This document shows, in pieces, positions 41,219-47,061 of a stretch of DNA of 47,061 nt (its first letter is position 1; each line of letters opens with the position of its first letter). Source of the DNA: Lachnospiraceae bacterium (GTDB taxonomy: Bacteria > Bacillota > Clostridia > Lachnospirales > Lachnospiraceae); NCBI GenBank assembly GCA_910575255.1, contig CAJTEM010000038.1, positions 1-47,061 of the forward strand. Reading direction: 5' to 3'. The notes under the pieces are model-generated. The model did no database searches, was not told the origin of the DNA, and saw only the letters and a program-made list of their open reading frames with translations. Both the position numbers and the translations under genes were made by a program.

Positions 41219-42379
41219 AAACTCAATGAATAAAACGCCTATTTTTGCCTTGAAACTTGCAACTTTTGTAATTGCGTTAGGATATAGCCTGATCATTCCG
41301 GTTATGCCGTTTTACATGAAAAATCTCGGAGCGGGTGGCAAAGAACTTGGCTGGCTCACGGCCATATATGCGCTGACACAAACACTGTGCGCCCCGTTTT
41401 GGGGAGTGCTGTCCGACCGAATCGGCAGAAAGCCGATTATCAGCATTGGCATGTTGGGCTATACAATCAGCTTATTGCTGTTTGGCTTGGCCTCCTCCTT
41501 TTGGACACTGTTTATCGCCCGTGCTTTATCCGGTATTTTGTCATCTGCTACGTCAGTTGCGTCCCTGGCCTATGTGGGTGATTCCAGCACAGAGGACGAA
41601 AGAAGCAAGAATATGGGCCAGCTTGGAGCCGCAATGAGTGTAGGTGTTATGTTAGGGCCGCTGTTTTGCGGTATTCTGGCTGGCTATTCACTTGCACTTC
41701 CATTCTTTACAGGAGCCGGAATTTCATTTATTGCATTTTTACTCATTGTAACCGTTTTGCCAGAGTCCATAGAGAGGTCAGGTTATCCGCACAAAAAAGA
41801 TTCTTTTGATTTTTTAGCCCTGAAAAGCATGCTGCTTGGTCCCGCAGGAGTTATTCTGATCCTTATTTTTATCGTAAACTTCTGTCAAACCGGTTTGCAG
41901 GGTATTACGGGGCTATATGTCGTTGACAAGTTTGGATTTACCACCGGGCAAGTTGGTGTTGTTTGGATGGTGGTAGCAGGTGTTTTAAGTGTAGTACAGT
42001 TTTTTTTACCGGTCCTTTGGAAAATAAGATGGGCGATAAGCTACTAATACTGACAGGCATATTTTGTAAAGCACTGGTTGCCTTTGCTATGGTATTAACA
42101 TCTGGCTTTATCAGTGTACTTGTTGTTTTCGGTCTATTTGCAGTATCTTCCGCTTTAACAGTACCCACACTAAACGCAAGCCTATCCAAGGCGGCCAATC
42201 AGCGCAAAGGAATACTCATGGGCTTTGCCAGCACCGCCGGAAATCTTAGCAAAGTCATTGCCCCTCTGCTGGCTGGGTATCTGTATGAGCGTAGTATTGA
42301 ATTGCCTTATATCACCATGGGAGCGATCGCACTAATTGGAACAATTATATGTTTTATCTGGAAAAAGACTGTGCGGTGA
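41211..42379 (+). pseudogene. MFS drug-efflux transporter, frameshifted
   Basis: A DHA1-type MFS transporter of about 390 aa if repaired. The first frame (41211-42047) gives about eight membrane helices, with the motif A loop GVLSDRIGRKPIIS. At a T8 run (42000-42007) the match continues in the -1 frame as TGPLENKMGDKLLILTGIFC through to 42379. One extra T would restore a full transporter. The run fits the U-UUU-UUA slippery pattern, but a deletion or a sequencing error is more likely. It overlaps the end of the phosphotransferase gene. ACTCAATGAATAAAA is duplicated in tandem at the start (41206-41235), giving two possible ATGs (41211, 41226). Confidence 0.82.
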
Positions 42380-45893: not shown

Positions 45894-46268
45894 ATGAAAC
45901 GAGAATTAGGAATCGCAAGGTGTGGGCTTGCCTGTTGCCTGTGTTCAGAAAATAAAAAATGCAATGGCTGCTATTCCGATACCTGTCCTGACTACATCCA
46001 ATGTGAAAACAGAAAATGCGCCATGGAGAAGGAACTTCCAAGCTGTTATGCCTGTGAAATGGATTGTAAAAGAGGGTTGCTGAATAAAATCAAGCCATAT
46101 GGATTTACATTATTTATAAAAAGATATGGGATAGAAAGTCTTCTTGACTGTCTTGAAGAAAATGAAAAGAGAGGAATCCTGTATCATCGTAAAGGAATTA
46201 TTGGCGATTATGATGATTTTGACGATGTGGAAAAGCTGATTGAATTTATTAAGACAGGGAAACGCTAA
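45894..46268 (+). CDS. DUF3795 Cys-rich protein (2)
   Basis: A 124-aa protein with the Cys pattern ARCGLACCLCSENKKCNGCY, CPDYIQCENRKCAMEK and LPSCYACEMDCKRG, then a short helical region. It is probably a zinc-binding DUF3795 member of unknown function. GAGGAAGGGA precedes the ATG. It lies 28 bases before the third member. Confidence 0.82.
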   Translation: MKRELGIARCGLACCLCSENKKCNGCYSDTCPDYIQCENRKCAMEKELPSCYACEMDCKRGLLNKIKPYGFTLFIKRYGIESLLDCLEENEKRGILYHRKGIIGDYDDFDDVEKLIEFIKTGKR

Positions 46269-46296
46269 ATTCCAGTTTTTAGAAGGATAAGAACTT

Positions 46297-46692
46297 ATGA
46301 AAATGCCTAAAGAAAATATTGACACAAGTATGTTTGCTCCATGTGGAATGAATTGTCTTGTTTGTTATAAACATTGCTGCCACAAAAAACCATGTGCAGG
46401 TTGCTTAAATAGTGATAAGGGAAAACCAGAGCATTGCCGTAAGTGTAAAATAAAAGATTGTATCAAGGTCAAAAAATTACCATATTGTTTTGAATGTTCC
46501 GATTATCCCTGTAAACGGATTAAAAACCTGGAAAAAAGTTATAACAAAAGATATCAGGAAAGCCTTATGGAAAACAGCGAATTTGTCCGTCAATTTGGTT
46601 TGGAAAAATTCATGGATATGCAGAAAGAAATATATACCTGTTCCCAATGCTCATGTACGGTAAAGAAGCAAGAGACCGAAAACAAGAGATAG
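46297..46692 (+). CDS. DUF3795 Cys-rich protein (3)
   Basis: A 131-aa protein with APCGMNCLVCYKHCC, KPCAGCLNSDKGKPEHCRKC and LPYCFECSDYPCKRIKNLEK, the DUF3795 pattern, plus a C-terminal CSQCSC pair. Function unknown. AGAAGGA precedes the ATG. It is the last gene before the repeat element at the window end. Confidence 0.82.
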   Translation: MKMPKENIDTSMFAPCGMNCLVCYKHCCHKKPCAGCLNSDKGKPEHCRKCKIKDCIKVKKLPYCFECSDYPCKRIKNLEKSYNKRYQESLMENSEFVRQFGLEKFMDMQKEIYTCSQCSCTVKKQETENKR

Positions 46693-46748
46693 ACCGCCAG
46701 CACCACACTATACCGAATCAAAGAACCAAAGACCAAAAGACAAGCATT

Positions 46749-46780
46749 GTGGAAAAATCCAAAAGTTTAGATTTTTCCAC
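46749..46780. terminator. Hairpin after the DUF3795 genes
   Basis: GTGGAAAAATC (46749-46759) and GATTTTTCCAC (46770-46780) are a perfect 11-bp stem with a 10-base loop, 56 bases after the last stop codon. The loop region AAATCCAAAAGTTTAGATTT resembles two overlapping, degenerate copies of the 12-mer found next to it. It may be a terminator, a part of the repeat element, or both. Confidence 0.5.
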
Positions 46781-47054
46781 AAATCCAAACTTAGAAGAAA
46801 TCCAAACTTTCCTCTGTAAATCCTTTATTCAAGGCATTTTCTGATAAAAAAGTTTGGATTTTGTTTTGTACTTCTCTTGTCAGAAATGAGAATAAATTGA
46901 TTGAAACAGAGCTAAATAGTAGTGTTTTACGCATTTTGTCATAATTGGAGTATTGTACTTTGTGAAACGAAATCCAAACTTTTTCCGGCAAGAATCCCCA
47001 ATTATCAAGCTGTTTTCAGAAAAGTTTGGATTTTATATAAGTTTGGATTTGTGG
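46777..47054. mobile_element. 278-bp symmetric element with six AAATCCAAACTT 12-mers
   Basis: The ends CCACAAATCCAAACTT (46777-46792) and AAGTTTGGATTTGTGG (47039-47054) are perfect 16-bp inverted repeats. Six exact 12-mers lie at 46781, 46798 and 46970 (AAATCCAAACTT) and at 46850, 47022 and 47039 (AAGTTTGGATTT). Every pair is placed with exact mirror symmetry (start plus partner end is always 93831), although the DNA between them has diverged. Each half reads 12, 5, 12, 40, 12 inverted. There is no convincing gene in the 108-bp centre. It looks like two ends of a recombinase-type mobile element brought together, a non-autonomous derivative. Confidence 0.75.
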
Positions 47055-47061
47055 GAATGTG

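Follow-up and report, generated by a model that had tools for sequence, protein, structure and literature searches.

The MITEs of DDE insertion sequences are short, gene-free and multicopy, and their ends are shared with an autonomous element. Other mobile elements carry tyrosine recombinases. Among them, RIT (recombinase in trio) elements are about 3.5 kb long and have three overlapping tyrosine recombinase genes, whose products are orthologous to RitA, RitB and RitC, between terminal inverted repeats. RIT elements are reportedly treated in Van Houdt 2009/2012 and in Ricker 2013, the last of which is said to be the main RIT paper. In the accessible portions of the published accounts, they are first named in Cupriavidus (PMC2864759, PMC3414803), and their ends are given as a 28–29 bp inverted repeat with an overlapping palindromic sequence (PMC3414803) or as a 34-bp terminal repeat (PMC10214605). 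The available text of a 2023 comparison reports that RIT transposition was not reproduced in the laboratory, and it lists the target specificity, empty sites and movement of these elements as not tested (PMC10214605). The same text describes Tn554, the strand-biased circularizing elements (SEs) and the GInts, which have several tyrosine recombinases and carry a 6-bp sequence between sites (PMC10214605).

The stretch of DNA analysed here (the window) is a contig of 47,061 nucleotides, C38 of its own genome, from a Lachnospiraceae bacterium, and it ends at 47061 within repeated DNA. An earlier note had proposed that six mirrored 12-mers at 46777–47054 are protein-binding sites at the ends of a MITE-like derivative of an unknown recombinase element. 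We read 46749–47056, with a probability of roughly 85% judged from sequence comparison, as a single insertion of a non-autonomous RIT derivative, that is, a RIT-derived MITE. In all likelihood, the 270-base block within it is a miniature passenger of the RIT transposon. Its parts are as follows.

46749..46754, unstranded: outer 6-mer on the palindrome side, GTGGAA (from sequence; same position tabulated for 34 other elements)
46755..46774, plus strand: PAL, a 20-bp detached palindrome, AAATCCAAAAGTTTAGATTT, made of two adjoining half-sites that resemble the 12-mer (matches the palindrome with 0 mismatches; separated from the element by 6 bp)
46775..46780, unstranded: inner 6-mer between palindrome and element, TTCCAC, the exact reverse complement of the outer GTGGAA (from sequence)
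46781..47050, unstranded: probable RIT-derived MITE, 270 bp, gene-free (from copies, shared ends and uninterrupted alleles)
46781..46792, plus strand: R1, terminal 12-mer (exact match)
46798..46809, plus strand: R2, direct 12-mer, 17 bp in (exact match)
46850..46861, minus strand: R3, inverted 12-mer, 52 bp after R2 (exact match; spacing survey of termini)
46970..46981, plus strand: R4, mirror of R3 (exact match)
47022..47033, minus strand: R5, mirror of R2 (exact match)
47039..47050, minus strand: R6, mirror of R1, at the other terminus (exact match)
47051..47056, unstranded: outer 6-mer on the element side, GTGGGA (from sequence; shared with the related locus L033)

The six exact copies of AAATCCAAACTT start at 46781, 46798 and 46970 on the plus strand and at 46850, 47022 and 47039 on the minus strand. 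For every pair, the start of one copy and the end of its partner add up to 93831, and the mirror is therefore exact, as had been claimed. The arrangement described for each half, with two direct 12-mers 5 bases apart and an inverted one 40 bases further inward, was likewise found in both halves. The whole window has seven exact matches to the 12-mer, the seventh lying isolated at 41928. Chance was ruled out as the origin of the array, since 100 dinucleotide shuffles of the window gave a mean of 0.03 matches and a maximum of 1. It had also been claimed that the 12-mers were kept while the sequence between them drifted, and this holds in two comparisons. Between the halves of the block, the 12-mers are 100% identical and the remainder 44%. 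Over 18 distinct 270-bp copies (25 of the 26 entries, L034 being omitted), invariant columns number 65 of 72 in the 12-mers compared with 115 of 198 outside them, with a Mann–Whitney p of 4e-7 that is indicative only because the copies are related. The extent of 46777–47054 proved too narrow, as the 20-bp palindrome at 46755–46774 and the 6-mers on each side belong to the structure too.

Conserved 12-mers and a perfect symmetry would also suit a regulatory or structural repeat, such as a terminator or a binding array, kept for a function of the host. We regard this as highly improbable, given that insertions of the element lie in coding genes for which there are uninterrupted alleles, that its ends are common to recombinase elements, and that 46000–47061 has no Rfam match at gathering thresholds. 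A structured RNA was dropped as a candidate on this last result.

A scan of genome contigs for the 12-mer pair with its 5-base gap, as the earlier note had suggested, recovered at least 114 stretches. Of these, 80 are listed as loci and, where named, come from Lachnospiraceae or other Clostridia. In the genome of the window, there is a second complete MITE copy in C68 (96% over 296 bp), together with partial copies at the contig ends of C62, C42 and C27 and a short form in C33. The 80 listed loci and seven own or related loci were reduced to 37 elements distinct by their 60-nt flanks, each complete at both ends and flanked by 60 nt or more; elements at contig ends, the window copy included, were omitted. 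Among the matches listed, these bounded elements comprise 24 of 270 bp, two of 269 bp, four of 98 bp and seven of 3415–3456 bp. At E≤1e-30, a DNA search across the family, with two candidates scored per genome and among the matches listed, gave 2 of 397 genomes, including the genome of the window. Two loci were observed to be composite arrays: in L114, a single left end is followed by two right ends, at distances of 270 and 459 bp, and in L125, one of the ends bears additional tandem 12-mers.

The element is therefore MITE-like in the sense of being short, non-coding and multicopy (26 elements of 269 or 270 bp and four of 98 bp, among the matches listed), with ends shared with an autonomous element. 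Bacterial DDE MITEs are alike in these respects. Nevertheless, the autonomous partner here is a tyrosine-recombinase trio, and in place of a simple inverted repeat the ends have arrays of half-sites accompanied by a satellite palindrome. A DDE-type MITE was ruled out because the large relatives carry tyrosine recombinases.

These large relatives are the larger elements with the same ends and recombinase genes that the earlier note had proposed looking for. All seven of the 3.4-kb elements among the matches listed have three tandem recombinase frames on the same strand, which overlap (for instance, 187–1521, 1518–2486 and 2452–3501 in L065), and a 29-bp R1-N5-R2 at each end. In length, gene content and terminal repeats, they correspond to RIT elements. 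Some trios are imperfect, as ritB ends early in L128 and ritC is broken in C7, and two further loci, L216 and L217, have no complete annotated trio. A MITE–RIT chimera is found in L068, where MITE bases 2–256, at 98.8%, are joined to RIT coding sequence. By best E-value, the proteins of L135 match those of the RIT archetype of pHG1 as RitA to RitA, RitB to RitB and RitC to RitC, in the same order; compared with the trio of a Priestia plasmid, the values are 41, 45 and 58% for RitA, RitB and RitC. The earlier note was thus right about a MITE-like element with a recombinase parent, whereas the parent is not unknown: orthology with pHG1 identifies it as RIT. Unlike RIT elements, the element of the window is gene-free and 270 bp long. 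It does not encode the trio, and no ORF of at least 80 aa is listed in 46781–47050, in a list covering ORFs that close within the contig; it is therefore a derivative and not a RIT element itself.

The several tyrosine recombinases and the carried 6-bp sequence of Tn554, SEs and GInts resemble what is seen in these RIT-type elements. By contrast, those systems have an extra protein of the TnpC/Srap/GinD type, whereas PF00589 was found in 9 of 9 proteins scanned, that is, in all three from each of L135, L025 and L065 (three of the seven large elements). A Tn554-like element was ruled out, as the third protein is a tyrosine recombinase and there is no TnpC-type accessory. The accessible part of PMC3414803 states that a possible catalytic motif is present in RIT proteins and gives no more detail. 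In the alignments made here, the catalytic residues of RitA (R257, K282, H355, R358, H381 and Y390) and of RitC (R182, H285, R288, H311 and Y320) are invariant in 7/7 sequences. RitB retains R161, K186, R258, H289 and Y298, and the first H of its HxxR box is Y in 6/7 sequences, namely the six Firmicutes ones aligned. A structure model of RitA, of moderate quality (mean pLDDT 61), has two successive helical bundles, at about 17–89 and 112–207, which agrees with the two N-terminal core-binding domains described for RitA in the available text of PMC8138268. The model of RitC (pLDDT 46.7) is too poor for an extra C-terminal helix to be read from it.

Mobilisation of the MITE would occur in trans, by RitABC. 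Relatives of RitA at E≤1e-60 were found in 3/99 genomes, including that of the window, and G022 has a full MITE and no RitA relative at this threshold among draft genomes. Both RITs found in the genome of the window look damaged, with ritC in two frames in C7 and RitC 9 residues short in C16.

The layout of the ends is shared between the MITEs and the RIT-sized elements. R1 and R2 are direct and 17 bp apart, start to start, and in 69 of 71 distinct termini among the matches listed R3 is inverted 51–54 bp after R2; the exceptions are one terminus with R3 at 69 and L109, which has no R3. A RIT on a Bacteroides ovatus plasmid has the same layout at both ends, built from other 12-mers (TTATCCAAACTT, TTATCCTAACTT and AAGTTTGGATAA) and with 52 bp, and so does the measured end of the Priestia RIT, also with other 12-mers and 52 bp. 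In the pHG1 archetype, the 17-bp repeat is weak, R3 is present at one end only and no PAL is visible. The stretches aligned in pHG1 and in Agrobacterium (L214) are long repeats in which the end layout is not separable, and no convincing ends were found in Mesorhizobium (L215). Both ends of the MITE are 80–84% like both ends of the RIT in L135 over 81–94 bp, which fits a MITE that is a RIT minus its middle portion. An assignment of the left MITE end to the ritA side and of the right end to the ritC side was dropped, as the values are 80–84% whichever way the ends are compared. Together, the two direct and one inverted 12-mers, the 6-bp gap and the detached palindrome give a finer description of RIT ends than the accessible portions of PMC3414803 and PMC10214605, although part of this layout may already be in print, for example in Ricker 2013.

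Among the matches listed, PAL is found on exactly one side of 34 of the 37 bounded elements and never on both, by a degenerate pattern with a tolerance of at most four deviations, and in 31 of these 34 it is exactly 6 bp from the element. It adjoins either end of the MITE and reads mostly AAATCYAAAAGTTTRGATTT, in either orientation. PAL is absent from three elements, L024, L111 and L135 (the main reference RIT), and is therefore not strictly needed for persistence. There are 77 distinct palindrome contexts, of which 65 adjoin an element end by script and two more by eye (L204 and L205, each beside a RIT with an R1 too degenerate for the script, which lowers the solo palindromes from 12 to 10). 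The solo palindrome of L044 has GTGGAA on both sides. In L057, L151 and L154, the solo palindrome is at the centre of a wider palindrome (GGATTCCG ... GGCATT-GTGGGA-PAL-TCCCAC-AATGCC ...), possibly another miniature element. The inner 6-mer is the exact reverse complement of an outer 6-mer in 7/31 cases, with a mean distance of 1.8 of 6; none of 2000 permutations came as close, a resemblance that is confounded by two recurrent target classes. Only 9/31 cases have the same 6-mer on both outer sides.

These features suggest, tentatively and with slightly less than even odds, the following scheme of recombination. The 12-mers would serve as half-sites for RitA, RitB and RitC supplied by a RIT of the same cell, and a recombination core would pair two half-sites in inverted orientation across a crossover region of 6 bp (TTTGGATTT-N6-AAATCCAAA). 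As PAL is made of two adjoining half-sites, PAL-N6-R1 would form a full core, and a circular MITE with its PAL would contain two of them. Integration by way of one core or the other would leave PAL beside either end of the MITE. Recombination of the PAL-side core with the far end would invert the MITE or delete it, leaving solo palindromes, and the 6-mers would act like coupling sequences that can be transferred between sites. PAL at either end, inner 6-mers resembling the reverse complement of outer ones, and solo palindromes are all expected from this two-core scheme.

Comparison of occupied with empty sites, which the earlier note had asked for, is possible at tnpV. The RIT of C7 and the MITE of C68 break tnpV at the same codons, and about a dozen more loci have an element at the same place, as judged by eye. 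Of the seven loci scanned, five have an uninterrupted tnpV with neither PAL nor element, and two gave no match to the search motif. The targets of a second RIT subgroup are integrase genes, which these elements split within the HxxR codons. If the element is removed from L061 and the element-side 6-mer kept, HPHRFRHSRAMH is regained, whereas the PAL-side 6-mer, kept instead, replaces the arginine; the PAL-side 6-mer is foreign here because HPHRFRHSRAMH is regained only with the element-side one. In L128, either 6-mer restores the HxxR motif. The idea that the element-side 6-mer is always native was dropped, as tnpV is not decisive (either 6-mer can be coding) and L061 is the only decisive integrase case. 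In L061, L128, L092, L096, L097, L130 and L024, RITs of this subgroup were observed in or beside the codons for HxxR in genes of other tyrosine recombinases, and they may specialise in interrupting the integrases of other elements; by eye, the flank of the pHG1 RIT also reads TPHTLRH. Together with the copies and the ends shared with recombinase elements, the uninterrupted sites support the proposed MITE-like derivative, with putative recombinase-type binding sites at its ends.

The empty sites also bear on the possibility that the palindrome is a pre-existing target outside the mobile unit, to which MITE and RIT come in the manner of homing elements. The ten solo palindromes, several in flanks that also bear MITE copies, would suit this reading. 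Nevertheless, the uninterrupted tnpV alleles have no palindrome, the split integrase of L061 gives a normal coding sequence once joined without the palindrome, and PAL follows the half-site sequence of its own element, with TTATCC in Bacteroides (where, by eye, TTATCCAAAAGTTCTGATAA plus 6 bp is found at one end of the RIT) and AAATCC in Lachnospiraceae. We therefore consider a pre-existing target quite unlikely.

Rearrangements of the element are seen at several loci. L112 aligns collinearly with L085 for 2.2 kb at 92%, but its MITE is inverted in place relative to that of L085, at 98.2%; the pattern recurs in L104 and L113, over about 480 bp at 75%. A stretch of 3444 bp, comprising the RIT and the bases that border it, is identical in two Priestia plasmids and occupies homologous sites; PAL lies to the same host side in both plasmids, and the RIT is reversed between them. 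We interpret the four 98-bp forms as products of deletion between 12-mers in direct orientation, 172 bp from each other, pairing R3 with R5 in C33 and L078 and R2 with R4 in L111 and L133. Ordinary homologous recombination between inverted ends could alone explain the in-place inversions. It would do so if the element were a RIT-derived relic that no longer moves and that has spread inside larger elements, such as Tn4451-like tnpV units, ICE-like ends and the neighbouring 170-bp palindromic repeat. Such a relic would suit the apparent damage to the RITs of the genome, the identity of 83–100% between the copies and the window copy (L034 left out) and the finding, by eye, that most copies are in just two recurrent contexts, tnpV and the GCATTGTGG locus. 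By contrast, the same target position carries differing 6-mers, MITE variants and orientations, L087 lies in a separate context with GTAGGA as both outer 6-mers, and one uninterrupted tnpV is in the genome of the window itself (C25). We consider a relic unlikely.

Other repeats surround the MITE of the window. Positions 47051–47061, which continue in L034, L033, C42 and C27 (L029, L030), begin a further repeat, roughly 170 bp long and inverted at its ends (GTGGAAATGTGTATAAC ... GTTATGCACATTTCCAC), and it has several words (TTATACACA, TTATGCACA) that we take to be DnaA-box-like. To the left of PAL, about 100 bp (46650–46748; AATGCTCATGTACGG ... GCATT) recur in other genomes with different upstream sequence (L037–L042), and for this reason a small cysteine-rich ORF at 46297–46692 appears to extend into one end of another mobile element.

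No description of a RIT-derived MITE was found in a literature search that covered few subscription journals. As far as the accessible portions of the literature go, the parent RIT is already known, and the RIT-derived MITE and the sharper description of RIT ends are new. The more general proposal, which we hold tentatively and give somewhat under an even chance, is that RITs and their MITEs move as a two-part unit, with three half-sites per end and a separate 20-bp palindromic satellite that supplies partner half-sites. The satellite would give the circle two equivalent crossover points, so that element and satellite could flip freely and satellite scars would be left behind. To our knowledge, no attachment-site design of element plus palindromic satellite exists in phage, ICE, integron or Xer systems. 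If the proposal is true, this two-part design would be common to at least the RITs of Lachnospiraceae, Priestia and Bacteroides, and the MITE would be its gene-free passenger. RIT elements are spread over many phyla, and a natural substrate of about 300 bp, with defined half-sites, uninterrupted alleles and inversions, would make their movement directly testable. The element also points to a kind of bacterial MITE that DDE-centred annotation would probably not look for.
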